This document shows, in pieces, positions 12,236-26,301 of a DNA stretch of 64,000 bases; positions within the stretch are counted from its first letter, which is position 1, and each line of letters starts with the position of its first letter. The stretch is from Balneolaceae bacterium (GTDB lineage Bacteria; Bacteroidota; Rhodothermia; Balneolales; Balneolaceae). Where the stretch lies: the NCBI GenBank assembly GCA_006969905.1, contig CP030887.1, positions 806,001 to 870,000 of the forward strand. Reading direction: 5' to 3'. Position numbers and translations under genes: made by a program. The notes below the pieces were generated by a model. That model was not told the origin of the DNA. It was given only the letters and a program-made list of their open reading frames with translations, and did not search any database.

Positions 12236-15200
12236 TTAATTCTCTATCGGCACCACCGGGTTTTCAATCTCTTCAAGTATTTCATCGTAGGCTCCATCCC
12301 AAATAGCTTGCAACTTTTGGAATTGTACATCTACTTTTGCTGCTAAATCTTCGAACACAGCATACTGTTGTGCTGTTGGCCTTCCGTAACCTGTAGCAAC
12401 CGTACTCTTTAGCGCCGCCAATTTATTATTCAGCTTGATGGGAAAATTAAGAACATCCTGGGTAGCCTCTGCCTTGGTTTGCACCAGTGCATTCTCTATT
12501 TCTGAGATAGCTTTCATCATAGCCTTAGCTTTCTCCTGGATCTCCTTATTGTTTTTTATCTCAGCCAGAGTTTCATTTAACTCATTCCGGACTTCCCTGA
12601 TACGATTAATCGTTTTGTGAGTGCTGTCAAGTTTGGCATTAATGGTTTGTACCAATTCAAATTGTGCAACCAAGTCCTCCTGCGAGATCATCGTTAGCCT
12701 TGGGTCTTTAAGTACTTCAAATTCCCGCTCTGCTATTATTTCTTCTCCAATAGTCAACCTAACTGTATATGTTCCCGGTACTGCATTTGGACCTGAAGTA
12801 TTTCCTGCCCACAGAATCTGTCTGCCTTCCAGGTTTGTAACTCCCGGATACTGCAAGTTCCATACAAACTTATTGAGTCCGGCTTTGCTGTTTACAACAC
12901 TTGGGCGGACTTCCTCTTCGTCCTCATAAAAAGATTTGCTTGGCTGAACAGAGCGGCCCCGGCTATCTTTTTTGCTTGAATAGCTTTGGATCAGTTCGCC
13001 ATCAGACTCCAAAAATTCCAGCTTTATTTCTTCTTCCACATTTTCTTTTAGGTTATAAAACACCACTACTCCCCTGGGCGGGTTTTCTCCTGTCGTGGAA
13101 CCGGGAGTAGAAAAACCTCCTCTTCCAAATAAGTACGTATGCTCAGGCTGGAAAAGATGGTTTTCAGATTTAGCGACCTGATCACTCATTTGATGAAGAA
13201 CTGTGAGATCATCCAGTATCCAAAAAGAGCGGCCCTGCGTAGCTACCACCAAATCCTTTTCCCGTTTATGTACTGCCAGGTCGGTTATAGGCACAGCCGG
13301 AAGATTAAGCTGTAAATCCTGCCAGTTTTCTCCGGCATCAAAAGAAACATACATCCCGGTTTCGGTTCCTGCATAAAGTAGCCCTGCTTTGTTGGGGTCT
13401 TCCCGGATCACCCTGGTAAAGTCCATTTCGGGAATTCCCTTTGTAATCTTTTTCCAGCTTCCTCCATAGTTGGTTGTTTTGTAAAGCATCGGCTCAAAAT
13501 CGTTGAACTTGTACCGTGTGGCAGCAAAGTAAGCGGTTCCTGCGTCATGATTAGAAGCATCCAGTATGCTGATCATAGCTTCAGGCAAGCCTTTCGGCGT
13601 TACATTTGTCCATGTCTTTCCATTATCCCTGCTGATGTGAATCAAGCCGTCATCTGCACCCGCCCAAAGTAAACCCGGCTCAATGGGAGATTCCACAAAA
13701 GTAAAAATAGTATTATAGTATTCTACTGAGGTATCATCTTTGGTGATAGGGCCGCCCGACTCATCTTGCTTGGTACTGTCGTTTCTCGTCAGGTCAGGGC
13801 TAATGGTTTCCCAGCTCATTCCTTCATCCGTTGAGCGGTGTACATGCTGGGAAGTAGCATATAATACATCCGGATTATGGGGCGAAATAATGATCGGGAA
13901 GGTCCATTGAAAACGATATTTCAATTCTTTGGCTCCGGCTCCCATGGGATTATCCGGCCACACATCAATCCGGTCGCTTAATCCCAACTCTGAATCATAA
14001 CGATTCAGGTAACCTCCATAACTTCCACCATAAGTAACATTAGGGTTCTCGGGGTCGGGAGCGATATATCCGCTTTCTCCCCCGGCAACCGGCCACCAAT
14101 CTCTTTCAGTAATACCAAAACCGCCTGTACGGTTTCGAATAGCAAAGGTACTGTTATCCTGTTGGGCACCATAAATCATATAAGGAAATTGGTTATCCGT
14201 AGTAACCTGGTAAATCTGTGCCGTGGCAGAAGTATAGTATGATGACCAGCTTTCGCCACCATTAAATGTCACTTGGCCTCCTCCATCATCTGCAACAATC
14301 ATCCGGGTGGGATCCGAAGGCGCAATCCATAAATCATGATGATCGACATGGGGAGTCCTGATCCTTCTGAAAGATACCCCCGCATCGGTGGATTTGTGGA
14401 AACCTACATTAAGTACGTAAACTTCGTCCTGGTTTTTAGGCCCAGCAATAACTTTAGAATAGTACCAGGCACGCTGCCTTAAATTCCGGTCTTTATTTAC
14501 CCGCCTCCAGGTATCTCCCCCATCATTCGACAGGTACAAGCCGCCATTAATATTCTCAATAATAGCATAAACCCGGTTTGAATTTGCCGGAGAAACAGAT
14601 ACGCCGATTTTCCCTAATAAGCCTTTAGGCATTCCGGGGTTTTTAGAGATTTCTTCCCAGGTTTCCCCCCCGTCTTTACTTCTGAAGATCCCGCTTCCCG
14701 GGCCTCCGCTGCTCATTTCCCATGGGCTGCGATACGCTTCCCAAAGGGTAGCAAATAAAATTCTTGGGTTATTGGGATCAACTGCTATATCGACCGCACC
14801 GGTTTTTTCATTTCTGTAAAGCACATTGCGCCAGGTTTTTCCTCCGTCTGTGGATTTATACACTCCCCGGGTTTCATTTCCTTCTGTCCCAAAAATCTGG
14901 CCCATAGCTGCTACCCAAAGTACTTCCTCATTGTGCGGATGGACTTCTATATCCCCGATAAACTGACTTTCTCCTAATCCCAAATATGTCCAGGTTTTTC
15001 CCTCATCTGTAGACTTATACATTCCGTCGCCCGCACTCATATTGCCACGGATGTCTGTTTCACCCATTCCCACATAAATCACGTTTGGGTCAGATGGCGC
15101 TACACTTATAGCTCCCACAGAGCCCGTTTTAAAATATTCATCACTGATGTTGATCCAGCTGTTTCCTCCGTCCATGGTTTTATAGACACCACCCCCAGTA

Positions 15201-15433
15201 AATCCTGTATAGTACGTGTAGGGTTGGGAATCATGCCCCGAAACCGCCACAGAGCGACCTGCCCGGAATGGGCCGATGTTGCGGTATTTCAGATCTTTAA
15301 ATAAACTCTTTTCATAAGTGGATGTGGCGGTTTCTGATCCATGCCCAAAGGTTTGGGCAATAGTGCTGCCCGTAAATGAAAATGCAAACACTATTACTGC
15401 GATAGTGAGCGCTGACTTTTTCCATGCCTTCAT
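12236..15433 (-). CDS. Large secreted BNR/sortilin-type beta-propeller protein
   Basis: 1065 residues with a signal peptide (ALTIAVIVFAFSFTGSTIAQ). The first about 750 residues hold many Asp-box/BNR repeats of the form S-x-D-x-G-x-T-W (STDEGKTW, STDGGKTW, SKDGGETW, SNDGGDTW, SRDNGKTW), which build one or two VPS10/sortilin-like propellers. A beta-sandwich region (GTYTVRLTIGEE) and a C-terminal coiled-coil segment (about 920-1010) follow. This type is common in Bacteroidota and annotated as glycosyl hydrolase or sortilin-like, but I see no catalytic residues that prove hydrolysis. It is transcribed alone toward the CPBP gene. Confidence 0.88.
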   Translation of the reverse strand: MKAWKKSALTIAVIVFAFSFTGSTIAQTFGHGSETATSTYEKSLFKDLKYRNIGPFRAGRSVAVSGHDSQPYTYYTGFTGGGVYKTMDGGNSWINISDEYFKTGSVGAISVAPSDPNVIYVGMGETDIRGNMSAGDGMYKSTDEGKTWTYLGLGESQFIGDIEVHPHNEEVLWVAAMGQIFGTEGNETRGVYKSTDGGKTWRNVLYRNEKTGAVDIAVDPNNPRILFATLWEAYRSPWEMSSGGPGSGIFRSKDGGETWEEISKNPGMPKGLLGKIGVSVSPANSNRVYAIIENINGGLYLSNDGGDTWRRVNKDRNLRQRAWYYSKVIAGPKNQDEVYVLNVGFHKSTDAGVSFRRIRTPHVDHHDLWIAPSDPTRMIVADDGGGQVTFNGGESWSSYYTSATAQIYQVTTDNQFPYMIYGAQQDNSTFAIRNRTGGFGITERDWWPVAGGESGYIAPDPENPNVTYGGSYGGYLNRYDSELGLSDRIDVWPDNPMGAGAKELKYRFQWTFPIIISPHNPDVLYATSQHVHRSTDEGMSWETISPDLTRNDSTKQDESGGPITKDDTSVEYYNTIFTFVESPIEPGLLWAGADDGLIHISRDNGKTWTNVTPKGLPEAMISILDASNHDAGTAYFAATRYKFNDFEPMLYKTTNYGGSWKKITKGIPEMDFTRVIREDPNKAGLLYAGTETGMYVSFDAGENWQDLQLNLPAVPITDLAVHKREKDLVVATQGRSFWILDDLTVLHQMSDQVAKSENHLFQPEHTYLFGRGGFSTPGSTTGENPPRGVVVFYNLKENVEEEIKLEFLESDGELIQSYSSKKDSRGRSVQPSKSFYEDEEEVRPSVVNSKAGLNKFVWNLQYPGVTNLEGRQILWAGNTSGPNAVPGTYTVRLTIGEEIIAEREFEVLKDPRLTMISQEDLVAQFELVQTINAKLDSTHKTINRIREVRNELNETLAEIKNNKEIQEKAKAMMKAISEIENALVQTKAEATQDVLNFPIKLNNKLAALKSTVATGYGRPTAQQYAVFEDLAAKVDVQFQKLQAIWDGAYDEILEEIENPVVPIEN

Positions 15434-15595: not shown

Positions 15596-16423
15596 ATGGC
15601 CGAACTTCAACCACAAAGGGAACCTGAGCGCTTTAATATGGAAAAACCTGTTCTTCTTACAATTAAATATGAAGGTGAAGTTTTTACTGCTGATGAAGTA
15701 GCAAATTTACTCAAAGCTTACACGGATCAGTATTCAAGATATATTGATGATGAGTTACTGATAATTAATGATATTAAAAAAGGGTCTTTAGAAATCTCAC
15801 TTCAAGAGATATTGAATTACATTGGTGCTGCTGCACCAATTATTGCAGAAAATGGTATTTATAAATTATATCAAGACTTAAAAACTGCATTTGATCTATT
15901 TAGAGAACGGTTACCCACTAAAGAGGAAGCCATAAATAATAATATTACTCAACAAAAATGTAACAACGTTGCTAACATACTTCAACCTGTTTCAAAGGAT
16001 AATTCTAACCAGCTAAATTTATCTGTAGTAAATGATAATAGTATCCACGTGCATTTAAATGTTAATGGTAATCAGGCAAGTACAATGATTAACCGAGTAA
16101 AAGAAATGAAGAAGATTCTAGCAGAAAAAACATCATTTACTCTTCAAAATGAACCGTTTAGATATCATCAAATTAGAAAATCTATAAAAACAGGTACTGG
16201 AGATAGAATTTTTGTGGAAAGTATTTCAAACAAACCACTAAAAGTTAAGTATGATAACGTCTCAATTAAGGAAGACATTGTAGAATCAAATGAAAACACA
16301 TTCAATTTTATCTTTTTTGCTAACATGACAGTCCAGCTAAAAGAAGATCTTCCTGATACAATAATTATTAATGAGTTAAGTGATCAAATGACCATTAATG
16401 AATTCACCCAAACACAAACCTGA
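15596..16423 (+). CDS. Unrecognised soluble protein, AT-rich
   Basis: 275 residues, no signal peptide, no convincing TM helix. The N-terminal third contains I-x-DI-x-KGSLEISL followed by a mildly hydrophobic helix (ILNYIGAAAPIIAENGI). The middle is Asn-rich (SVVNDNSIHVHLNVNGN) and the C-terminal third looks like a beta-rich domain (KPLKVKYDNVSIKED). I cannot name the family, although the GSLEI block looks like a conserved element of a widespread hypothetical family. The gene is more AT-rich than its surroundings, and its last 20 nt overlap the 3' end of tonB on the other strand. It stands alone, with an inverted repeat 7 nt before its start. Possibly acquired; function unknown. Confidence 0.72.
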   Translation: MAELQPQREPERFNMEKPVLLTIKYEGEVFTADEVANLLKAYTDQYSRYIDDELLIINDIKKGSLEISLQEILNYIGAAAPIIAENGIYKLYQDLKTAFDLFRERLPTKEEAINNNITQQKCNNVANILQPVSKDNSNQLNLSVVNDNSIHVHLNVNGNQASTMINRVKEMKKILAEKTSFTLQNEPFRYHQIRKSIKTGTGDRIFVESISNKPLKVKYDNVSIKEDIVESNENTFNFIFFANMTVQLKEDLPDTIIINELSDQMTINEFTQTQT

Positions 16424-17225
16424 ATGTAATAGTACCCCATTGAGCCTGCTGGGGAGCGCCGCTGGGCAGGCGTGAAAATTTCCAGTTGCGCAGGGTTCTT
16501 TGTACTTCCTGCTCCAATTCGGGATTCATTTTTTTGAGTGGGATGATTCGACCTACTGAGCCGTCCGGACGAACTTCAAACCGTACAGAAATTACTGCTT
16601 CTGTATTGGAGGTATTTGTAGGCAAAGGTTGTACCATAGGGGCACGTTCCAAATCACCTTCCCATCTAAGTTCATAAGGAGCGGTTTTGTCGTCATCCGT
16701 TCCGGTTCCGGCATCTACATTTGTCTCTCCTGTATTCCCTTTTACATCACCGCTTTCCTCTGCACCTTCTTCGGTTTCCAGGTCTTCCTTAGCTTTGGGC
16801 GGTACTTCCACTACTTCTTCAGCTTCTTCTGCCTGCTGCTGGGTAGGATTTACCACTTCAGTATCGGGCGTTTTAACGGGTTCTTCCACCACATCTTCTA
16901 CCTGGTCCGGTAAATCAACAGGTTTGGTGTTTTCTTCTGTAGGGTTTTGCGGAGCTTCTTCCGGTTCAGGAACTTCTTCCTTTGGGTTTTCAGGTTCTAC
17001 TTCTGATGGATTCGGACGGCGATTGACTTCTTCTTCTTTCACTTCTGAAAAATCAGCCAATGTACCTGTTTGAAATTCCCCAAATTCCACTTCAATAAAA
17101 GACGGACGGAAGGACTGGTTCATGTCCAACGTAAACCAAAGCGAAAACAACAGTAGTACCACCGTCATACTTAGCGTGACCGTAAGTGCCAAACCATCAT
17201 CTTTATTAAACCGGGAGTTTGCCAT
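16404..17225 (-). CDS. tonB: TonB-family energy transducer
   Basis: 273 residues. One N-terminal TM helix (about 12-31, LALTVTLSMTVVLLLFSLWF) anchors it in the inner membrane. A long Pro/Glu/Val-rich linker (about 50-165) spans the periplasm, and a C-terminal TonB domain (about 205-273) has the VRPDGSVGRI-type motif and ends WGTITFRFVFG. It passes proton-motive force from ExbB/ExbD to outer-membrane proteins. It is the last gene of a six-gene minus-strand operon, 6 nt after exbD, and its 3' end overlaps the convergent unknown gene by 20 nt. The conserved SVG...P signature supports TonB over TolA. Confidence 0.92.
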   Translation of the reverse strand: MANSRFNKDDGLALTVTLSMTVVLLLFSLWFTLDMNQSFRPSFIEVEFGEFQTGTLADFSEVKEEEVNRRPNPSEVEPENPKEEVPEPEEAPQNPTEENTKPVDLPDQVEDVVEEPVKTPDTEVVNPTQQQAEEAEEVVEVPPKAKEDLETEEGAEESGDVKGNTGETNVDAGTGTDDDKTAPYELRWEGDLERAPMVQPLPTNTSNTEAVISVRFEVRPDGSVGRIIPLKKMNPELEQEVQRTLRNWKFSRLPSGAPQQAQWGTITFRFVFG

Positions 17226-17231
17226 AATATA

Positions 17232-17648
17232 TTATAATGAGCTTTGCTCGGTTGCCATCACCAGTTTCAGATTCAGTGCTTTGCCTATATTCATTACTCG
17301 AACGGCATCGTCTACCTTTGCATCCTTATCTGCACGTAATACTATCGTTCTATTTACCGTATTATTGCGTGCCTCACGAATTGCAGTAGCCAAAGAACCT
17401 CGTGCAGTCAGATCTCCGTTCACATAAAACTGGCCGTCTTTTGTAATGGCTACTGATATCATCTGCTGCTGGGTAGTTGCCCCTGATTCTGCTTTCGGGA
17501 TATTAACTTTAATCCCAAAATTGGTGACAAAAGAGGAGGTTAAGAGAAAGAAAATGAGCAACAGAAGTACAATATCCGTCAATGACGACTGTGAGAACAG
17601 CGACAATGGTGTTAACCGTTTATCTCCTCTTCTAAAATCTCGTGACAT
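17232..17648 (-). CDS. exbD: ExbD/TolR-family biopolymer transport protein
   Basis: 138 residues. One TM helix (about 22-43) with the essential Asp at its start (TDIVLLLLIFFLLTSSFV), then a periplasmic domain (VNIPKAESG, ISVAITKDGQFYVNG, LRADKDAKV) typical of ExbD. It forms the stator/rotor complex with ExbB and couples the proton gradient to TonB. The start lies 2 nt after the exbB stop and the end lies 6 nt before tonB, so all three are one unit. TolR is the alternative name, but the neighbouring TonB makes ExbD more fitting. Confidence 0.92.
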   Translation of the reverse strand: MSRDFRRGDKRLTPLSLFSQSSLTDIVLLLLIFFLLTSSFVTNFGIKVNIPKAESGATTQQQMISVAITKDGQFYVNGDLTARGSLATAIREARNNTVNRTIVLRADKDAKVDDAVRVMNIGKALNLKLVMATEQSSL

Positions 17649-17650
17649 GT

Positions 17651-18361
17651 TTATGCCTGTTTTTTAGGTGCCGGGGATTGAAGTAAATCAATAAAATCTG
17701 CCGATGCGTTTTCCAATTCAAAAATGGAGCGGTTGATCTTGCCCAGCAAAAAGTTATAGAAACCAAATGCGATCAACCCAACAATCAAGCCGGCTGCAGT
17801 GGTAATTAATGCTTCCCAAATTCCTCCTGCTAGTTCACTGGGATTTACATTCCCCTGCAAAGACTGTATATCCATAAAGGCTTCGATCATGCCGGTAACC
17901 GTTCCTGTAAAACCTAAAAGCGGCGCCACACCTGCAATAGTGGCCAGCCAGTTCATGCGCTTTTCCAGGAAAAAAATCTCTTTCTTACCTGCGTTATCGA
18001 TTGCATCTTCAATATCACGAATAGGCCTTCCCAAACGCCTAATGCCTGCCTTGATGATCCTCGCAAGAGGTTTGTCAAAATCGTCACAGTGAGCGATGGC
18101 ATCTGCCTGTTTACCTGATTTCAGCATACCTTCAATCGAAGCTAGAAACCGTTCTGTGTCTGTATGTGACCTGCTTAATGCTCTCCAGCGTTCCGTTATT
18201 ACGTAAATGGAAATCATAAAAAGTATGAAGATAGGGATCATTAAAATCCCGCCTTCAAGCATTAAATCAAAAAGGGTAATAGTTTCTCCTTCCAGCATTT
18301 GAGAAAGCGAGTCGGCAACAGCAGTAGTATCAGACTGTAACCATAGCAATAATGTGTTCAT
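17651..18361 (-). CDS. exbB: MotA/TolQ/ExbB proton channel family protein
   Basis: 236 residues with three TM helices: about 32-53 (GGILMIPIFILFMISIYVIT), about 140-162 (LATIAGVAPLLGFTGTVTGMI) and about 185-208 (ALITTAAGLIVGLIAFGFYN). The LLGFTGTVTGMIEAF and EALITTAAGLIVGL motifs are hallmarks of ExbB/TolQ. It supplies the proton channel for the ExbD/TonB encoded next. It starts 15 nt after the HU/SPOR gene, which links that gene to the same transcript. Confidence 0.93.
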   Translation of the reverse strand: MNTLLLWLQSDTTAVADSLSQMLEGETITLFDLMLEGGILMIPIFILFMISIYVITERWRALSRSHTDTERFLASIEGMLKSGKQADAIAHCDDFDKPLARIIKAGIRRLGRPIRDIEDAIDNAGKKEIFFLEKRMNWLATIAGVAPLLGFTGTVTGMIEAFMDIQSLQGNVNPSELAGGIWEALITTAAGLIVGLIAFGFYNFLLGKINRSIFELENASADFIDLLQSPAPKKQA

Positions 18362-18376
18362 GTAGATGATATTCTT

Positions 18377-20110
18377 TTATTGAATTTTTTTGATGAAGTA
18401 ACCGCCTTTAAAAAAGTCTTTGTTTTCCTCTACCGTTGCAGCAGCAGATACCAAACTTTCGAACTGCCCCACACTAACGCGATACAGCACCCCATATTGG
18501 CTTGAGGGTACTTCTGCAACCATAGTCCTGAAACCCTGGTTCCGCAATCGGGTTAATTGCTCATCTGCACCTGCTTTCCTGCTCAATGAGTATAGTACAA
18601 TTGTATAACCTGAGTTCCCGGCTTGGCTTAAGCTGCCCATTAAACCGTATGTATCAGGATTATCCTCCGCAGGCGAAACAGGATTCTGATCAGGCACAAC
18701 TTCTCGTGGTTGAGGGGTATCCGGGGTTGTTGTTTCCGTTTCGCTCTGAGAGTTTTCAGCAGGAGGTACCTGAGTTTGAGGAACAGGTTGCTGAACCGGT
18801 GGGACGTTTTGTGCAACCTGTGGCTGAGGTTTATATTTTGGTGGAGTAATTCCGTCAATATTCACTACGCCAAAATAGGCGAGCAAATATCCTCCGCCAG
18901 CAATAACAACCACGAATAAAAGTACATATAAGAGTGCCGGAGAGCCTTCTTTCTTCTTTTTTGTTTTCTTTTCCTTTTTCGGCTTTTTGTCTTTTTGCTT
19001 AGACTTCTCTTCTTCTTTCTCCCCTGCCTTATCCTTTGAAACATTGGTTACTATGGGCACAAAATCGTCATTTAGTGCGGTTTCCGGCTCATCATCTTCA
19101 AGCTGGGCAAAGGGATCGTCAAAATCTTCATCCTCCTCGGAAAGGGGTTTGTCTTCCAAAGCAGAAAAATCTATTTCCTCTTCATCCGGTACTTCATCAC
19201 TTGTAGTTTCCTCTTCTGGTTCTGCATCACCAAGATCTCCGAGTAAACCACCAAAAGCATTTTCCTGGCCCTCTTCTTTGTGAGCTTCTATACCCCATTC
19301 TTTAGGGCCGGGGCTGGCTACAACCTCTTCTTCCTCAGAAGTTAACTCTTCCAGTTCAGCGGTCTCTTCTTCAGGTTCAAAAGATTCCGAAACCAGTTCC
19401 TCTTCTACGGTTTCTTCATCTGCACCAAACACTTCATCTCCTAACAAGTCCTCATCTGAAGACAGGGTGTCCACCCCTTCCTCTGTTTCATCACCTTCAT
19501 CAAATAATGAGGAAAGGTCGTCTTCGAGTGCTTCATCATCATCTTGAAGTTCACTTTCCAGGGCTGCGGTGATATCACTTTCAAGGCTTTCTTCTTCCAG
19601 AGGTGTTTCTGTTTCTGACTCATCTTCTTCTTCAAAAGCAAAGGGGTCTTCGTTTTGTTCATTCTCTGAGTCTATAACTTCCTCAACAGCCTCTTCCACT
19701 TCTTCAATTTCTTCCTGGCTTTCTTCATCGTCATCATCTAGGTTTAATAACTCAGCAAATGGGTCTTCATTGACCTCGTCTCCCGTTGCATCCATAATTC
19801 CCGCAATTGGATTGTCATCCATAGTTTGAGGTTCATCTTCTTTTTCTTCAGCACCTCCGGGAATTTCAATGGGTTCCATCCCCACATACTTATAGTTAAT
19901 CTCTGTTTCTAATCCCTCAGAAGGAATAAACATCACATTATTTCCCAGCTTACTGAAAATACCAAAGCCCTCTATTTCATAAGCTTCATCTTCAGCCAAA
20001 GCTGATTTAATGTCGTTGATAAGCTCTGCAAGCTGTTTTTCTACTTTTTCACGATCCTGCCCCGAGTTTTCTACAAGCAGGTCTACAAATTTTGGATGAT
20101 CCAGGTGCAT
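18377..20110 (-). CDS. HU-like domain / acidic linker / TM / SPOR domain protein
   Basis: 577 residues from ATG at 20110, chosen because it lies 1 nt after the stop of the preceding short HU gene; the open frame extends further upstream but only through that gene. Residues 1-70 form an HU/CCDC81-like DNA-binding-type fold (LAELINDIKSAL, EIEGFGIFSK). About 95-345 is extremely Glu/Asp rich and about 355-387 is Lys rich. About 389-413 is a TM helix (LLYVLLFVVVIAGGGYLLA), then a Pro/Gln-rich periplasmic stretch, and about 500-577 is a SPOR domain. The positive-inside rule puts the HU domain in the cytoplasm and SPOR in the periplasm, where SPOR domains bind denuded septal peptidoglycan. Third gene of the operon ending in tonB. 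Confidence 0.88.
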   Translation of the reverse strand: MHLDHPKFVDLLVENSGQDREKVEKQLAELINDIKSALAEDEAYEIEGFGIFSKLGNNVMFIPSEGLETEINYKYVGMEPIEIPGGAEEKEDEPQTMDDNPIAGIMDATGDEVNEDPFAELLNLDDDDEESQEEIEEVEEAVEEVIDSENEQNEDPFAFEEEDESETETPLEEESLESDITAALESELQDDDEALEDDLSSLFDEGDETEEGVDTLSSDEDLLGDEVFGADEETVEEELVSESFEPEEETAELEELTSEEEEVVASPGPKEWGIEAHKEEGQENAFGGLLGDLGDAEPEEETTSDEVPDEEEIDFSALEDKPLSEEDEDFDDPFAQLEDDEPETALNDDFVPIVTNVSKDKAGEKEEEKSKQKDKKPKKEKKTKKKKEGSPALLYVLLFVVVIAGGGYLLAYFGVVNIDGITPPKYKPQPQVAQNVPPVQQPVPQTQVPPAENSQSETETTTPDTPQPREVVPDQNPVSPAEDNPDTYGLMGSLSQAGNSGYTIVLYSLSRKAGADEQLTRLRNQGFRTMVAEVPSSQYGVLYRVSVGQFESLVSAAATVEENKDFFKGGYFIKKIQ

Positions 20111-20111
20111 A

Positions 20112-20309
20112 TCAATCCTCCAAAGCTGATTTAAACTCAATAGAGTCTTTAGGGGGTAACATGATATAAACGCCGTCCGCTCGCTTTTCCTGGCGCTGAC
20201 TGGTATGCTCTGCCTTAAAAACCCCCAAACCATCTATTTCCATAGAGTTCTTCATGATGATCTGATCCCTGATTGTAATCCCGAATGCTTTAAGAAAATC
20301 TTTCGTCAT
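20112..20309 (-). CDS. Short HU/IHF-like DNA-binding protein
   Basis: 65 residues, against about 90 for standard HU. It has the core of the fold: a helical N-terminus (FLKAFGITIRDQI), the IDGLGVFKAEH beta turn, and YIMLPPKDSIEFK, which matches the end of the HU saddle (normally a proline-rich IPA...PxF). Most of the DNA-intercalating arm is reduced. The frame sits 3 nt after the outer-membrane barrel gene and 1 nt before the HU/SPOR gene, so it is a real operon member. It may pair with the HU-like domain of its neighbour. Confidence 0.75.
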   Translation of the reverse strand: MTKDFLKAFGITIRDQIIMKNSMEIDGLGVFKAEHTSQRQEKRADGVYIMLPPKDSIEFKSALED

Positions 20310-20312
20310 AGC

Positions 20313-22025
20313 TTAGATCTTTAGTTTTATACCTCCAAAGACTTGAAAAGGACGTTCCTGGTAGCCTTCCCAAACCTGATACTTTTCCCCCAGAATATTC
20401 AACACTTTAATATAAAGGCCAAATGTATTGTTAATTTCGTAATCGACACCCGCATTTACCAATAAAAATCCGCTTAATGTCTGATTGGTTGCCGGTGCTG
20501 TTCGTTCACCGGTATATTGCATCCACGACTTAATACTTAGAGCTTTTAACGGCTTAAAAGTTACAACACCATTAAAACCAACCTTCTCCTGAAAAGGCAC
20601 ATCGTCCCCATTCGATAGCTTTGGGCTTTGGGCATATAAAACCGCATCAAACCAAAGTTTATCAGAAACCAGTTGTTGTGTGGCCCCGATATCAAAGTAG
20701 ATTTTATTCCCGTTTTCAAAGTTGATTCCATAAAAGGTAAGCTCATTGTTTACTCCAAACGTTTGCTGCGAACGAGTGTAATAAGCAAGGTTATCAATGT
20801 ATTCGTAGGAGACGTTTGCAAAGGCACTCAATCCTTTTAGAGGTTGTATCCTTAGCCCGCTTTTAATACCTGCGCGATACTCCTGCCCCAACACCGATCC
20901 CGCTCCTAAAAATCGGTTTTGCTGATGATGCTCCCACATAGTTTTAAGCTCGGGCCGGGCAAAAATGCTCCCCTCAATTCTCACATTTTCATTTACCGTA
21001 TGAGCGAAACCAAGATCAGTAACAAAACGGATTCTGCTTTCCTGCCCATCATTTATGTAAGCTAAACCGCCTTCAAGATTAAGCTGGGTATTAAAGTTCA
21101 GCAGTTTTTGATAGGCAAAACGCACATCACCGCCTGCCCATTGGGTATTGCTGATTTGTTGAGAGGAATAATTGCCAGCATCGAGGCTGAATTTTAACGC
21201 ATAGGTTTCATAAAGTTCTTTCCCGGCCCATTTTTTCTCGAAACCTGTTTTTAAACTCTGCTCATCAATATCTCCTTCAAGGGCTGCATTGGGGGCATCC
21301 AAACCAATCCCTACCAAAGATGTATTTATATAGTATTCCCATCCTTCAAGGGCATTTTTGTTGCCTTGCAATATTGCTCCTATATGTACTCCCTGGTAAC
21401 TCTTTTGGGAGGTTCCAGAATTGTCGTTGGGTACATTCCCCGATAGCTCAAACAAGTGGTTAAAATCATTAAAAACCCCTGCAGATACTGAGGCTTTGGT
21501 GCTTTTTTTGAGCTTTGTACTATACACCCCATTAAAATCAAAGAAGCGAAAACCAGCATCCTGGTTATTTAAATGCCCATCAGATGATTCGAAATTCAGA
21601 TCCCCGGAAATAATTGCTTTTTCATTTAATCGCCTGAATGCATACGCTTGTAATTCAGGACTGATATAACTTCCAACCCCTCCCCTGATAAACGCAGTAG
21701 TGCGATTCGGCTGTCTCAAAATGGTTCGGGCAGGGGGTTCAGGCCTGTCTAACTGGGTAAGTGAAATGCTTGCTACCGCCTGTTCTGGTGTTTCCATAAA
21801 AGGCATGCGATTAGGATCTATTCTGAAAACCCTCGGCTTGGGATTAAATCCTAAAATAGGTTGGCGGCGAAGGCCGGGAAACCGGGCTTTAAACTCGCTT
21901 CGTATTTCAATGTCCTGGGGGTCAATTTCCGGTAAGAGAGAGTTTTGGCCTCCTGATTGTGCCAGGCTAATCTCTCCAGTCATCATTGTTAATAAAAAAA
22001 CGGCAAATAGGCTTCGCTTCATCAT
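20313..22025 (-). CDS. Outer-membrane beta-barrel protein (TonB-receptor-like barrel without plug)
   Basis: 570 residues with a signal peptide (SLFAVFLLTMMTGEISLAQ). About 100 residues rich in Pro/Arg (DPQDIEIRSEFKARFPGLRRQP) precede a barrel of many beta-strands. The C-terminus (NTFGLYIKVLNILGEKYQVWEG ... QVFGGIKLKI) looks like the last strands of TonB-dependent receptors, but I see no plug domain and no clear TonB box. First gene of the barrel-HU-HU/SPOR-ExbB-ExbD-TonB run; its stop lies 3 nt before the short HU gene. It may be the outer-membrane partner of this dedicated TonB system, or a structural barrel. Confidence 0.82.
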   Translation of the reverse strand: MMKRSLFAVFLLTMMTGEISLAQSGGQNSLLPEIDPQDIEIRSEFKARFPGLRRQPILGFNPKPRVFRIDPNRMPFMETPEQAVASISLTQLDRPEPPARTILRQPNRTTAFIRGGVGSYISPELQAYAFRRLNEKAIISGDLNFESSDGHLNNQDAGFRFFDFNGVYSTKLKKSTKASVSAGVFNDFNHLFELSGNVPNDNSGTSQKSYQGVHIGAILQGNKNALEGWEYYINTSLVGIGLDAPNAALEGDIDEQSLKTGFEKKWAGKELYETYALKFSLDAGNYSSQQISNTQWAGGDVRFAYQKLLNFNTQLNLEGGLAYINDGQESRIRFVTDLGFAHTVNENVRIEGSIFARPELKTMWEHHQQNRFLGAGSVLGQEYRAGIKSGLRIQPLKGLSAFANVSYEYIDNLAYYTRSQQTFGVNNELTFYGINFENGNKIYFDIGATQQLVSDKLWFDAVLYAQSPKLSNGDDVPFQEKVGFNGVVTFKPLKALSIKSWMQYTGERTAPATNQTLSGFLLVNAGVDYEINNTFGLYIKVLNILGEKYQVWEGYQERPFQVFGGIKLKI

Positions 22026-22111: not shown

Positions 22112-23137
22112 TCAGGTTCCCTGTTTACCAGCTTTTTCCTTCAGCACTATAAATTTATCTGCAGCCAGTAAAGCAGGAGTTATTATTATGATTACCAATA
22201 ATGTAGTTGCATGGGCTATTGTTGCATAGGCCAGCCCGGTTGCTTCGGGTACTGTATAGAGCAGAAATAAACTTTTTGTAATGAACAGATGATAGGTACC
22301 AACTCCGCCCGGCGTTGGTATAATGATGCCTACTGCTGAAACCATCGTGAGAACCAATGCATCAGCATAAGTGAGCCCAAAAACTTCCTGCATATCGAAC
22401 ATCCAAAAAGGAACATAAGTCATGGAAATATAGCATCCCCAAATAAGTACCGTGTATAATACAAAGAGGGGCCAGTTTTTAAGTTCTTTTACTGCCAACA
22501 CTCCATCAATAAAGGTTCTTGCTATGCCTCTTAATTTCAGAAAAAACTTTTCGATTGTTTGTACTCTTTTGCTTAGCGCATTAAGCACGAAGAAAGCAAT
22601 TGCCAAACCAATAGCCCCTATACCTGCCAGTTTAACGAGTGACCAAACAAAAGACAGCAGCACTTCAGAATCGGTAATGTCTACGCCAAACAGATTTTGT
22701 AGTATTTCAGGGTCTGAAACCATAAACACCACTACAAATGCCATTAAAACAGCAAGAGTCAGGGTATCAATAATGCGTTCAAGAACAATGGTACCGATGA
22801 GCTTGCTGTTACTTTCTCCTACCTGGCGGGCTACATAAACAGGCCGAGTCACTTCCCCCAGCCTTGCAAAAGGGATATTGGCCAGGTAGCCAAACATTAC
22901 CCCCGTAAAAAGTGTAAAGCGATGCGGCTTTTTGTTGTCTCCGGTAAATAGTAATCTCCAACGCTCTGCCCTGAAGAAGTGAGCGGAAAGAGTTAGCACA
23001 ACAAAAGGAATAAGCCAAAGAAATGACATCCCTTTTGAGGCTTCCACGATTTTTTCAAATTCTACCTCCTTAAAAGCCAGCCATAAAAAAACACCTGCCA
23101 GTAATACCCCAACCAGAACTTTGAGTGCGGTTTTCAA
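22112..23137 (-). CDS. Flippase-like/lysylphosphatidylglycerol-synthase TM-domain protein
   Basis: 341 residues, about eight TM helices, matching the UPF0104/TIGR00374 family related to the membrane half of MprF. Family signatures include HFFRAERWRLLF near residue 55, FARLGEVTRPVYVARQ near 95, and a late PTPGGVGTYHLF motif. Members are thought to move lipids or lipid-linked sugars across the inner membrane, but substrates are mostly unknown. The start is 1 nt from the lolA stop, so it is co-transcribed with ftsK-lolA. An 86-nt gap separates its end from the barrel operon downstream. Confidence 0.87.
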   Translation of the reverse strand: MKTALKVLVGVLLAGVFLWLAFKEVEFEKIVEASKGMSFLWLIPFVVLTLSAHFFRAERWRLLFTGDNKKPHRFTLFTGVMFGYLANIPFARLGEVTRPVYVARQVGESNSKLIGTIVLERIIDTLTLAVLMAFVVVFMVSDPEILQNLFGVDITDSEVLLSFVWSLVKLAGIGAIGLAIAFFVLNALSKRVQTIEKFFLKLRGIARTFIDGVLAVKELKNWPLFVLYTVLIWGCYISMTYVPFWMFDMQEVFGLTYADALVLTMVSAVGIIIPTPGGVGTYHLFITKSLFLLYTVPEATGLAYATIAHATTLLVIIIITPALLAADKFIVLKEKAGKQGT

Positions 23138-23138
23138 A

Positions 23139-23756
23139 TCAATACCTGGTATCTACAATTTCTGAATCTTCCGGGTAGTTTAGCACAAAAAGATTGTCTG
23201 AAGGATTTACAAAAGTACCTTTAGAAAAGCTTGTAATAATTTTGTTTTCTGCAAAATCAACTGCCTGAATAGTAACCGGTTTTCCATTTCGATCAACGGT
23301 AATCACCACTTCCATATACAGGGCAAAATCATCATCTGTCTGCATAGTGATGGAGGTAGTTCCATCCTGGTTCTTTTTTTCAACTACTGTATAGGTGGAA
23401 TCCACACCCTTAAGCATTTTCGATGGGGCAAACTCATCGTCCTCTTCCACATAATCACTGATAATTACCCTGTTCCTGTATTCATCATATACCTGGGAAG
23501 TAACCCCGTCTACAATCAAAACCTGGCCATCGCTTTCAAGTTTATAGGCTTTTTCCGCTATCCAAATTTGACCTTCGCTTGTAATGCGCTCATTGGTATA
23601 AGAGTCTTCATATACATGTGAATAAGAAGCTTTAAAAACCCGGCCTTCGTTAAAAATGGTTTTAAGCTGATTAAATACGGGCGTTTGTGCTTTTACCGGA
23701 ACGGCTACTGCGATAAGTATGACCAGCAGTAGGCTTTTTCTGAATTTATAAACCAT
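23139..23756 (-). CDS. lolA: LolA-like outer-membrane lipoprotein carrier
   Basis: 205 residues from the ATG at 23756. That start is chosen because a signal peptide follows directly (YKFRKSLLLVILIAVAVPVKAQ); the frame stays open further upstream only inside ftsK. The start overlaps the ftsK 3' end by 11 nt. The mature protein has the LolA-type beta pattern (FKASYSHVY, SEGQIWIAEKAYKLESDGQ, VIISDY, GKPVTIQAVDFAENKIITSF). LolA carries lipoproteins through the periplasm from LolCDE to the outer membrane. The ftsK-lolA order is common in Bacteroidota and also occurs in Proteobacteria. Confidence 0.88.
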   Translation of the reverse strand: MVYKFRKSLLLVILIAVAVPVKAQTPVFNQLKTIFNEGRVFKASYSHVYEDSYTNERITSEGQIWIAEKAYKLESDGQVLIVDGVTSQVYDEYRNRVIISDYVEEDDEFAPSKMLKGVDSTYTVVEKKNQDGTTSITMQTDDDFALYMEVVITVDRNGKPVTIQAVDFAENKIITSFSKGTFVNPSDNLFVLNYPEDSEIVDTRY

Positions 23757-26301
23757 CAAGTCCATCCAAGATTTCCTGTAATTCTTCTTCGGTAGAGATA
23801 AGAACTTCCCTGGCGGTACTTCCCTGGTATGGCCCAACAATTCCTGCATTAAATAATTGATCTATGATTCTTCCTGCACGATTGTATCCGATCTTAAGCT
23901 TTCTCTGTAGTAATGACACGGAGCCTTGCTGGTGAAGCATTACTACTTTAGCAGCCGATTCGAACATATCGTCTATGTCATCTAACGGATCAGGTATGCC
24001 TGCATTGTCTTCCTGGATAATAGGCAGGTGGAAAGGCTCTTTGTACCCGGCTTGTTGGCCAATAAATGCATTAATGCGCTCTACTTCTTCTGTTGAAACA
24101 AAAGCGTTTTGGATACGGGTCATCCCCGCACCATTGGTGAAAAGCATATCACCCTGGCCAACCAGTTGATCTGCGCCTCCTACATCCAGGATAGTTCTTG
24201 AATCTACTTTGGAAGCAACCTGGTAAGCGATACGAGCCGGAAAATTAGCCTTAATGGTTCCTGTAATTACGTTTACAGATGGCCTTTGTGTAGCTACCAC
24301 CAAATGAATACCAATAGCCCGTGCCAACTGTGCCAATCGTGCAATGGGTTCTTCAATTTGCTTGCCGGCCGTCATCATTAAATCAGCAAGTTCATCAATT
24401 ACCACTACGATATAAGGTAAATGACGATGGCCTAACTCTTCATCCAGTTCCCCGGTTTTAAACTTAGCGTTATACGCTTTTATATCTCTTACCAATGCCA
24501 TTTTAAGCAGATCGTAGCGTTCATCCATTTCTTTACACACACTATTTAAGGTGTCTAATGCTTTGGATGTGTCCGTGACAATAGGCTCTTCTGCATTGGG
24601 CAGCATAGCCAGAAAATGATTCTGGATATTCCGGTAGAGTGCCAGTTCAATCTTCTTCGGGTCAATCATCACAAATTTCAGGTTTTCAGGGTCGCACTTA
24701 TACAACAGGCAGGTAATAATTGTATTTACCCCTACTGACTTACCTGAACCGGTTGCCCCTGCCATTAGCAGATGAGGCATTTTGGTGAGATCGAGCATAA
24801 ACACTTCGTTCTCAATGGTCTTTCCAAATGCCACAGGAAGTGTCATATCTGTTTCAACAAACTTCTTGGTATTTATAACCTGCTTTATGTATACCGTTTC
24901 CCTGGTACTGTTTGGCACTTCTATCCCCACTGCGGATTTGCCTGGAATCGGGGTAAGCATTCGCAAACCTTTGGAGGCCGTTGCCATTTTAAGATCGTTG
25001 GAGTAGCTCTCAATTTTGCTGATTTTAACGTCCGGTGCCGGCTCAAGTTCATACAATGTTACCGTTGGACCTACAATAGCATTAATGCCTACTATTTCAA
25101 TTTTGTGACGCTTCAGTTTGTCCAGGATAATCCGTTTGTTTTCCCTGATTTCTTCAAGATCTACCTCGTTCCTGTTTTCGGGAGGGGTATCCAGTAAGTC
25201 AATGGTTGGGAATTTATACCTAATAACCGGTACTTCTTTTGCCTTTTCCCGGTTTATTTTGTCCAGGTCACGCTCATCTGCCTGTTCATCGCCCTCTCCT
25301 TTAAATACTGCCACCTCAATATCATCCTCTTCTTCGCCATCGGTATCTTTATCTTCTTCAACCTTTTCTTTTTCAAAAGCGGCTCGTTGGCGGGTATCAA
25401 GGGTCTGAACAGCAGCTTTTTCCTTTTCCAATCGCTCCCTGTCTTCTTCTTCCGATTTTTCGACTATATCCTCAATGCTGGGTACAGGAGTTTTTTCTTC
25501 AGGGGGCTTAACTACAGGTTTTGGATCAGGTTTCTTCTTTTGCTCTTCTTTTGCGTTCTGCTCTGCTTGTTTTTCTTCCTTCTTTGCTTCCCTTTCAGCT
25601 CGTTTTTCTGCCAGTCGTTCTTCACGCTCCTGGGCTTTTATTTCTTTACGTTCAGCCCTGGCTATCCTGGCATCTTCCATTTTATGGCGGATATTTTCCA
25701 TCCACAGCTTAAAGTTGTCAATAGTTTTCTGGAGATCCCTGTCCCAAAGTAAGAGGGTGGTTATTATCGCCAAAACCCCCAAGATAAAAATAGAGCCTAA
25801 CCCGGTAATGTTTTGTAGAATTCTCGAAATCGCAATTCCCCCGGCCCCTCCCCAAATAGAATCTTCAGGAAAAGCTGCATTCGTATTTAACCATCCTATA
25901 ATGCTGGATAGCAAAATCATACTCCAGATACTCAGAATTGAGATCCACCCTAGCTCCTTATAGTCCCTGTGGCGGAATATATGCCAGCCTTGGTACGCCA
26001 ATAATATTGAAATAATAAAGCTGGTATAGCCAAATAAGCTATACACAACAAAGTGCGATATGTATGCTCCCACAGGCCCCAGCCAGTTTTGGATAAGCCT
26101 TTGCGTGGCATCAGGATTAAACAAATCCATAAAGGAAATGTTTTTTGCGTACTGGTAATCTGCCGGTGTGTAGGAAAGGATGCTTAACCCAAGCAGAACG
26201 GATATGGCAATAATGATTACACCAATTATCTCAACTTTGCGCTTGGCGTTTATTCCGTTAGCTGCAGATTTTGTTGAAGTATTTAGCTTCTTTTTAGCCA
26301 T
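23746..26301 (-). CDS. ftsK: DNA translocase FtsK/SpoIIIE
   Basis: 851 residues. Four TM helices lie in the first about 190 residues. A charged Lys/Glu/Arg linker (about 200-370) is followed by the alpha/beta/RecA motor with Walker A GATGSGKSVGVN near residue 512, Walker B IVVVIDELADLMM and the ATQRPSVNVITG motif. The C-terminus is a gamma winged-helix domain (SVSLLQRKLKIGYNRAGRIIDQL) that reads KOPS-type polar sequences. It pumps chromosome DNA at the septum and activates XerCD at dif. The start overlaps comB by 8 nt and its end overlaps lolA by 11 nt. Confidence 0.97.
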   Translation of the reverse strand: MAKKKLNTSTKSAANGINAKRKVEIIGVIIIAISVLLGLSILSYTPADYQYAKNISFMDLFNPDATQRLIQNWLGPVGAYISHFVVYSLFGYTSFIISILLAYQGWHIFRHRDYKELGWISILSIWSMILLSSIIGWLNTNAAFPEDSIWGGAGGIAISRILQNITGLGSIFILGVLAIITTLLLWDRDLQKTIDNFKLWMENIRHKMEDARIARAERKEIKAQEREERLAEKRAEREAKKEEKQAEQNAKEEQKKKPDPKPVVKPPEEKTPVPSIEDIVEKSEEEDRERLEKEKAAVQTLDTRQRAAFEKEKVEEDKDTDGEEEDDIEVAVFKGEGDEQADERDLDKINREKAKEVPVIRYKFPTIDLLDTPPENRNEVDLEEIRENKRIILDKLKRHKIEIVGINAIVGPTVTLYELEPAPDVKISKIESYSNDLKMATASKGLRMLTPIPGKSAVGIEVPNSTRETVYIKQVINTKKFVETDMTLPVAFGKTIENEVFMLDLTKMPHLLMAGATGSGKSVGVNTIITCLLYKCDPENLKFVMIDPKKIELALYRNIQNHFLAMLPNAEEPIVTDTSKALDTLNSVCKEMDERYDLLKMALVRDIKAYNAKFKTGELDEELGHRHLPYIVVVIDELADLMMTAGKQIEEPIARLAQLARAIGIHLVVATQRPSVNVITGTIKANFPARIAYQVASKVDSRTILDVGGADQLVGQGDMLFTNGAGMTRIQNAFVSTEEVERINAFIGQQAGYKEPFHLPIIQEDNAGIPDPLDDIDDMFESAAKVVMLHQQGSVSLLQRKLKIGYNRAGRIIDQLFNAGIVGPYQGSTAREVLISTEEELQEILDGLDGL

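Follow-up and report, generated by a model that had tools for sequence, protein, structure and literature searches.

Organization and conservation of the operon

The DNA stretch analyzed here (the window) comprises 64,000 nucleotides (nt) of contig CP030887.1 from a Balneolaceae bacterium (GenBank assembly GCA_006969905.1, positions 806,001 to 870,000 of the forward strand). At 16404-22025, on the minus strand, lies a six-gene operon for an outer-membrane barrel, a short HU-like protein, a second HU-like protein with a transmembrane (TM) helix and a SPOR domain (the HU-TM-SPOR protein), an ExbB-ExbD motor and a TonB-like transducer (Table 1), with gaps of 3, 1, 15, 2 and 6 nt in transcription order. 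It was first pointed out by a model given only the letters and their open reading frames (ORFs). This sequence-only reading proposed a machine linking nucleoid, septal peptidoglycan and outer membrane, perhaps in a Tol-Pal-like role, and its coordinates, strand, domains and gaps are all confirmed. The start of the HU-TM-SPOR gene was placed at the ATG at 20110; an alternative ORF of 618 amino acids (aa) overlaps the short HU gene.

The operon occurs across named Balneolales loci, including those of Balneola, Gracilimonas, Fodinibius and Rhodohalobacter, and the window accordingly comes from a relative of Balneola. The six genes are complete in 66 of 80 such loci, and the remaining 14, where at least one gene is undetected (partly because of contig ends), fall outside this count. 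Order and strand are identical in all 66, so the cluster is not a product of chance, and the conserved order on which the sequence-only reading leaned is borne out. The median gaps over these loci are 3, -4, 12.5, 2 and 5 nt, taken from the first possible start codons, so that some of the overlaps are artefacts of that choice. Wider comparisons used a sample of 148 genomes of the phylum, 37 of them in the class of the window genome, with families labelled f1, f2 and so on (f1 and f2 are Balneolales). All six parts named by the sequence-only reading stand, but it overlooked a large TPR partner encoded elsewhere and the fact that the two HU-like genes most simply correspond to one known tandem (see later).

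Table 1. Genes of the operon, followed by flanking genes and by thioesterase genes of family f19 (positions are those of the window unless a locus is named)
Feature	Position	Strand	Description
Outer-membrane barrel	20313..22025	-	570 aa; signal peptide, N-terminal segment 31-78, barrel 110-569, predicted plug-free
Short HU-like protein	20112..20309	-	65 aa; putative HU-CCDC81 domain 1 counterpart
HU-TM-SPOR protein	18377..20110	-	577 aa; HU 1-72, acidic low-confidence stretch, TM 392-413, SPOR ~499-577
ExbB/TolQ-type motor subunit	17651..18361	-	236 aa
ExbD/TolR-type motor subunit	17232..17648	-	138 aa; TM Asp present
TonB/TolA-like transducer	16404..17225	-	273 aa; TM without the histidine common to most homologues
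LPG_synthase_TM gene	22112..23137	-	upstream neighbor; in many Balneolales loci
LolA-like gene	23139..23849	-	upstream neighbor; in many Balneolales loci
ftsK	23746..26301	-	upstream neighbor; in many Balneolales loci; ORF presumably FtsK
Convergent ORF	15596..16423	+	275 aa; overlaps final 20 nt of the TonB-like gene
Downstream gene	12236..15433	-	1065 aa; kept in 8 of the Balneolaceae loci read
f19 4HBT thioesterase	L183:4885-5394
f19 4HBT thioesterase	L184:6915-7430
f19 4HBT thioesterase	L188:6953-7471
f19 4HBT thioesterase	L189:7168-7677

The outer-membrane barrel

The first gene product has no Pfam match and only weak NCBIfam matches to the C-terminal part of TonB receptors, and a search of solved structures by sequence found no relative. 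An AlphaFold2 model (80 sequences) has a mean predicted local distance difference test score (pLDDT) of 83.4 and folds residues 110 to 569 into 22 long strands and two short ones of 3 residues each. The best Foldseek matches are the TonB-dependent receptors Fiu, Cir and BtuB (E ~1e-17, TM-score by query 0.57-0.62); in the fold searches, the absence of a structure from the match lists carries no weight. A plug domain is not predicted, as residues 1-110 have block-mean pLDDT values of at most 55 and there is no strand before residue 110. As modelled, the protein is a 22-strand, plug-free barrel of the TonB-receptor type.

The most conserved part of the protein lies ahead of the barrel. Residues 31-78 have a mean top-residue frequency of 0.86, versus 0.43 for residues 110-570, and hold 20 of the 26 invariant columns. 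This segment is near-invariant although disordered in the model, where residues 16-70 and 72-78 fall below a pLDDT of 50. In a wider set (A3, 30 sequences) it is still recognizable but less strict, and in 27 of the 108 genomes with a barrel (see later) the profile match did not extend to residue 40 or lower. By analogy with the TonB box, such a segment close to the mature N-terminus would be expected of a docking site; the TonB C-terminal domain and the TPR protein are both candidates for its partner.

The HU-like proteins and the SPOR domain

The SPOR domain of the HU-TM-SPOR protein is matched above cut-off by Pfam (1.8e-8), while its HU domain falls just under the cut-off of Bac_DNA_binding (2e-4, 22.0 bits versus 22.4) and below that of HU-CCDC81_bac_2 (PF18175; 2e-4, 21.5 bits versus 35). 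An AlphaFold2 model (72 sequences) has a mean pLDDT of 61.8 and a predicted TM-score of 0.30, and high confidence is confined to roughly residues 1-70, the TM helix at 392-413 and residues 488-577. Within these parts, residues 3-72 match the HU fold (Z 10.2, root-mean-square deviation (rmsd) 1.5, 70 aligned), and residues 501-577 match the SPOR domains of RlpA with denuded glycan (Z 8.3, rmsd 3.1, 76 aligned) and of DedD (Z 7.6, rmsd 3.8). The HU assignment is therefore weak by sequence and firm by the modelled fold. A lysine-rich stretch lies just before the TM helix, and the positive-inside rule accordingly places the HU side in the cytoplasm. SPOR domains target denuded septal glycan.

The nucleoid link proposed by the sequence-only reading is not supported by this domain. 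Relative to full-length HU chains, about 18-20 residues, corresponding to the arm, have no counterpart (aligned are 71 of the 91 residues of 5lvt_A and 72 of the 89 of 3rhi_B), and the domain has a net charge of -10 (mean -8.3 over 72 sequences, positive in two). Since the arm is absent and the domain acidic, DNA binding by the modelled HU domain is unlikely. The short HU-like protein matches Bac_DNA_binding above cut-off (7.9e-5, 23.3 bits); by alignment it begins after HU helix 1, and its charge is near neutral (mean +0.2 over 78 rows).

In all four proteins tested from other families, HU-CCDC81_bac_1 and HU-CCDC81_bac_2 are fused in a single protein, and SPOR was matched in three of them. 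A profile comparison connects the short HU-like protein to the first domain of these fusions (96.5%, E 9.5e-10), although the model of that domain (PF18174) gave no match on the protein itself. The two HU-like genes are thus most simply taken, from their profiles, as one known tandem (HU-CCDC81) that is split here. The tandem was reportedly described by Burroughs and colleagues in 2017. PF18175 is found in 103 of the 148 genomes at 0.01, in 29 of them above cut-off, and was rejected as a clean marker, since 7 of 14 control genomes are matched too. In four of the five f19 loci tested (eight were fetched; Table 1), the fused HU-HU-SPOR gene has a 4HBT thioesterase gene as its neighbor; the one thioesterase run on NCBIfam is YciA-like, below cut-off. 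Operons for tol-pal also carry a thioesterase (YbgC).

Motor and transducer

The three remaining products all exceed their Pfam cut-offs: ExbB on MotA_ExbB (6.6e-30, 103.9 bits), ExbD on the ExbD model (2.8e-26, 92.5 bits) and the TonB-like protein on TonB_C (4.5e-6). The motor stays below the TolQ and TolR cut-offs: the ExbB scores 84.8 bits on the TolQ model (cut-off 221), versus 47.1 on the ExbB model, and the ExbD scores 54.1 bits on the TolR model, below its cut-off of 127.3. Nine TonB_C matches occur at eight places in the window genome, where PF13103 (TonB_2) has no match; the operon's is the lowest (29.9 bits), and five others score 65-85 bits. With seven other TonB_C places, and the lowest score in the operon, nutrient uptake need not depend on the operon TonB, and by their sequences other motors and transducers are present for uptake. 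One of these motors is a second ExbB (locus L031, G000:C1:3439500-3459000). After it come genes for an ExbD-like protein and a 148-aa protein, and thiL, with no recognizable TonB gene adjacent in the locus read.

A histidine in the TM segment is present in 42 of 69 rows of TonB-like proteins and absent in 27, the window's protein among them, so that its loss follows lineages. In the present analysis the column is assigned to the TonB/TolA motor box, which is named in the available part of PMC12204202.

The sequence-only reading described the motor as locked to the two HU-like proteins. This holds in all 66 complete Balneolales loci, but across the phylum the ExbB start lies within 6 kb of the barrel in only 64 of the 89 barrel genomes for which an ExbB place is listed; the other 19 of the 108 barrel genomes (f21 among them) stand outside this count, their ExbB place not being among the matches listed. 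Linkage is complete in Balneolales (23/23) and, elsewhere in the class, in every genome tested (13/13, with f8 outside the test), and is absent in f17 and f22 (0/2 each). In a tree of ExbB-type proteins (37 rows, with 12 forks open and long-branch warnings), the unlinked motors of f19, f22 and f14 fall inside a supported group with linked ones, and long branches separate the second ExbB of the window genome and the TolQ of f16 from that group. At one f32 locus (L045, genome G128), the genes for TPR protein, barrel, ExbB and ExbD are consecutive, barrel and ExbB not being separated by an HU-SPOR gene, and contig C66 of this genome holds another TPR-barrel set.

A TPR partner encoded outside the operon

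A seventh partner emerged from the comparison of loci. In most of those read outside Balneolales, a TPR protein of about 1000 aa is encoded directly upstream of the barrel, and all 17 members examined are of TPR nature. In the window genome its gene is unlinked to the operon and lies beside aroA (C1:1496403-1499360). Adjacency of the two genes is near universal outside f1 and f2 (83 of 84 genomes) and is not seen within them (0 of 23). The Balneolaceae have one match in 18 of 19 genomes, and two pieces of one frame in the nineteenth. Across the sample, the TPR protein is found in 107 of 148 genomes (E<=1e-60), as a single match in 105, and all 107 carry the barrel.

Model matches to the TPR protein are difficult to interpret. 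The Pfam model TPR_Slam scores 56.2 bits (cut-off 35.2) in the member shown and matches 12 of the 17 members, and many other TPR models outscore it. The YbgF model (TIGR02795) gives 286.4 bits (cut-off 90.1), summed over nine stretches of generic TPR repeats. As the score is a sum of nine repeats, and the CpoB model itself gives 89.5 bits against a cut-off of 383, this sequence match is weak evidence. NCBIfam models for PgaA (35.4 bits on one TPR protein, cut-off 366.65) and PorW/SprE (134.8 bits, cut-off 250) also fall short, and the matches among solved structures are engineered or eukaryotic TPR proteins. PG1028 was considered as the counterpart in P. gingivalis and rejected, as it carries an OmpA-like domain according to the available part of PMC4980022; it also appears in passages on vesicles in the available part of PMC4335976. 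At one f19 locus, a gene for a protein with an OmpA domain (peptidoglycan-binding) directly follows the TPR-barrel pair (L072:8624-9778).

Distribution of the barrel, Pal and TolB

The barrel was counted as present in 108 of the 148 genomes (E<=1e-24), using a cut set after a gap was seen between 5e-25 and 6e-19 and including G007 (5.0e-25). At 1e-5 there are matches in 141 genomes, the extra ones being mostly short, C-terminal and generic. The sole barrel genome without the TPR protein (G005) is probably a false match, and its N-terminal segment is not aligned. The HMMs (hidden Markov models) used to scan loci left out the last 4 of the 35 rows of alignment A2, which are merely genes upstream of ExbB, and alignment A6 holds 71 of 75 homologues, with L149, L156, L165 and L178 left out.

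Pal scores above its curated cut-off in 30 genomes, which are all 30 genomes of f16, a family we infer to be Chlorobiaceae-like, and neither the barrel nor the TPR protein is found in any of them. The 148 genomes thus divide into 108 with the barrel only, 30 with Pal only, none with both and ten with neither. In the f16 locus read, the products TolQ, TolR, TolB and two copies of Pal pass their NCBIfam cut-offs, and a TolA-like product falls short of its own. Pal was not found at its curated cut-off in the window genome, where the best of three matches scores 92.9 bits versus 125.35 and belongs to a YiaD-family lipoprotein (243.3 bits on its own model, cut-off 175). Weaker matches of the Pal model, to other OmpA-domain proteins, occur in 145 of the 148 genomes. 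TolB_N was matched in seven genomes, in six above cut-off (four of f16 and two of f7, the f7 frames being about 1040-1090 aa), and was not found in the window genome by a search that matched only 4 of the 30 Pal-bearing f16 genomes. Whether genomes with this operon lack Tol-Pal, a check proposed with the sequence-only reading, comes out in its favor for Pal, which no barrel genome carries above cut-off; for TolB the search is insensitive.

A proposed Tol-Pal-like machine and its alternatives

The operon can tentatively be read, with confidence a little short of even, as encoding a proton-powered, septum-anchored machine that works like Tol-Pal with partly different parts. Motor and transducer are recognized by sequence and the SPOR domain by sequence and fold; we infer the function from these and from the mutually exclusive distribution with Pal. 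Such a role has become likelier since it was first suggested, given the conservation of the operon, the presence of other motors in the genome, the lack of a Pal match at the curated cut-off there and the mutual exclusion of barrel and Pal across the sample.

In such a machine, ExbB and ExbD would drive the TonB-like transducer by the proton motive force, and its C-terminal domain would cross the periplasm and grip the near-invariant N-terminal tail of the open 22-strand barrel, so that the outer membrane may be pulled or rearranged. The HU-TM-SPOR protein would span the inner membrane and hold denuded septal glycan through its SPOR domain, an anchoring that would place the motor at the division site. 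Given their computed properties, its cytoplasmic HU domain and the short HU-like protein may together form a protein-binding platform and not a DNA binder, and the TPR protein may act as a CpoB-like periplasmic regulator of, or linker for, the barrel.

Several observations weigh against this interpretation. The contrast between barrel and Pal is effectively about one evolutionary event, setting one family against the rest, and its Fisher value takes no account of relatedness. The TolB_N search, besides being insensitive, also matches two f7 genomes that carry the operon and the control Bacteroides ihuae (over the cut-off). The ten genomes with neither barrel nor Pal (four of f10, four of f29, one of f13 and one of f18) indicate that other solutions may exist, and the f18 genome (G014, locus L100) keeps SPOR, ExbB and TonB-like genes together, with barrel and TPR protein not found. 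Motor and barrel genes are unlinked in f19 (0/14) and f14 (0/6), and at an f21 locus (L090, genome G105) the TPR, barrel, SPOR and TonB-like genes stand in a row with ExbB and ExbD not found in 14 kb. Force transduction may be altered in the window's TonB-like protein, which is without the TM histidine, and a wide barrel is unneeded just for tethering membranes. Among the ten genomes, an f10 locus (L099, genome G001) has two ExbB-type genes about 5 kb apart.

The barrel is explained better by a lesser but still substantial possibility, that of a TonB-energized outer-membrane channel in which the TPR solenoid presents a substrate (a surface lipoprotein, protein, glycan or lipid) to the plug-free barrel, ExbBD-TonB gates or drives its passage, and SPOR is only a wall anchor. 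A plug-free barrel of the TonB-receptor type would be a wide pore and need gating, and known exporters (Slam and PgaA) are built from TPR repeats and a barrel, in keeping with the TPR_Slam matches and the slight PgaA score, though the TPR matches are generic and other TPR models score higher. SusD-type surface lipoproteins occur in 75 of the 107 TPR genomes versus 4 of the 41 others, but they were not found in 32 of the 107 and are present in all four f29 genomes, which lack the module, and the tie was set aside as decisive neither way. Among the operon genes, none was recognized as coding for a substrate or a synthase, and a channel accounts less well than a Tol-Pal-like machine for the SPOR/HU protein and for the contrast with Pal.

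That the operon is a Ton system dedicated to nutrient uptake, with a receptor that no longer has its plug, is improbable. The motor and transducer do adjoin a TonB-receptor-type barrel, but this has no plug domain, is linked to the SPOR/HU and TPR proteins and belongs to a module found in most of the phylum sample, in a genome with seven other TonB_C places. A link between chromosome and septum through DNA-binding HU domains is slightly more improbable still: the HU fold of the model and the presence of FtsK upstream in many Balneolales loci speak for it, and the missing arm, the acidic domain and the short HU-like protein, near neutral and by alignment without helix 1, speak against it, so that nucleoid coupling was rejected as the main function. 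Least probable of all is an accessory of type IX secretion or gliding. All 34 of the 148 genomes with GldM_4th carry the TPR protein, with its subthreshold PorW/SprE match, but GldM_4th was not found in the window genome or in 73 of the 107 TPR genomes (in a search of unchecked sensitivity that matched 0 control genomes), and this alternative was rejected on those 73 genomes.

It is possible, if a step more doubtful than the reading of the operon itself, that most of the phylum Bacteroidota uses such a motor-driven system in place of Tol-Pal for outer-membrane constriction or tethering, consisting of ExbBD-TonB, a septal HU-HU-TM-SPOR anchor, a tail-gripped open barrel and a large TPR partner. 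The module would then be an independent solution to the problem that Tol-Pal solves. It is widespread and often lies beside its own motor, and no description of the operon was found among the papers listed in the literature searched, from which most subscription journals and preprints were out of reach. For genetically tractable Bacteroidota, the analysis provides a short list of genes for depletion and localization and marks out a 48-residue segment as a target for mutation.

Flanking genes

Upstream of the operon, the block of LPG_synthase_TM, LolA-like and ftsK genes (Table 1) was set aside as probably just neighbors of the machine: in the other families read, only the f18 locus L100 has relatives of LPG_synthase_TM and FtsK nearby. 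On the other side, the position of the convergent ORF is taken in some relatives by a gene of about 460 aa on the operon strand. The 1065-aa protein beyond it presumably resembles sortilin/VPS10 repeat proteins.

Comparison with known systems

PorE is a proposed tether between outer membrane and peptidoglycan in Bacteroidetes and, like the operon, has been put forward as a replacement for Tol-Pal functions; PorE-like fusions are reported in Rhodothermaota as well (available part of PMC12204202). The available portion of that paper names no motor for PorE, and the word SPOR is absent from its main text. PorE-type matches (E<=1e-30, none above cut-off) occur in 46 of the 148 genomes and in only 1 of the 37 in the class of the window genome, where the module is present. 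PorE lies outside the operon and was not found in the window genome at this threshold, which matched 0 control genomes and which a divergent PorE may escape, and it was rejected as the same system.

With Tol-Pal the operon shares the motor superfamily, a TonB/TolA-like transducer, a TPR partner and a predicted peptidoglycan-binding member. It differs in that its genome is without Pal at the cut-off and without TolB detected by the insensitive search, in having a barrel instead of a lipoprotein, in placing peptidoglycan binding on the predicted inner-membrane HU-TM-SPOR protein, and in a motor that scores below the TolQ and TolR cut-offs. The Ton system likewise has the motor, the TonB_C domain and a barrel of the TonB-receptor type, but here the barrel is predicted to be plug-free and is fixed in one operon with HU and SPOR proteins, and the TonB-like protein lacks the TM histidine.

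The HU-CCDC81-SPOR proteins (PF18174/PF18175) have the same HU1-HU2-TM-SPOR plan, the differences being that HU1 has its own gene in the window and that the protein is part of an ExbBD-TonB-barrel operon. SPOR division proteins such as FtsN and DedD have a cytoplasmic N-terminus, a TM helix and a periplasmic SPOR domain, a topology predicted for the HU-TM-SPOR protein as well and consistent with the DedD fold match; unlike them, the window's protein carries a predicted cytoplasmic HU domain and is encoded in an operon with a motor.

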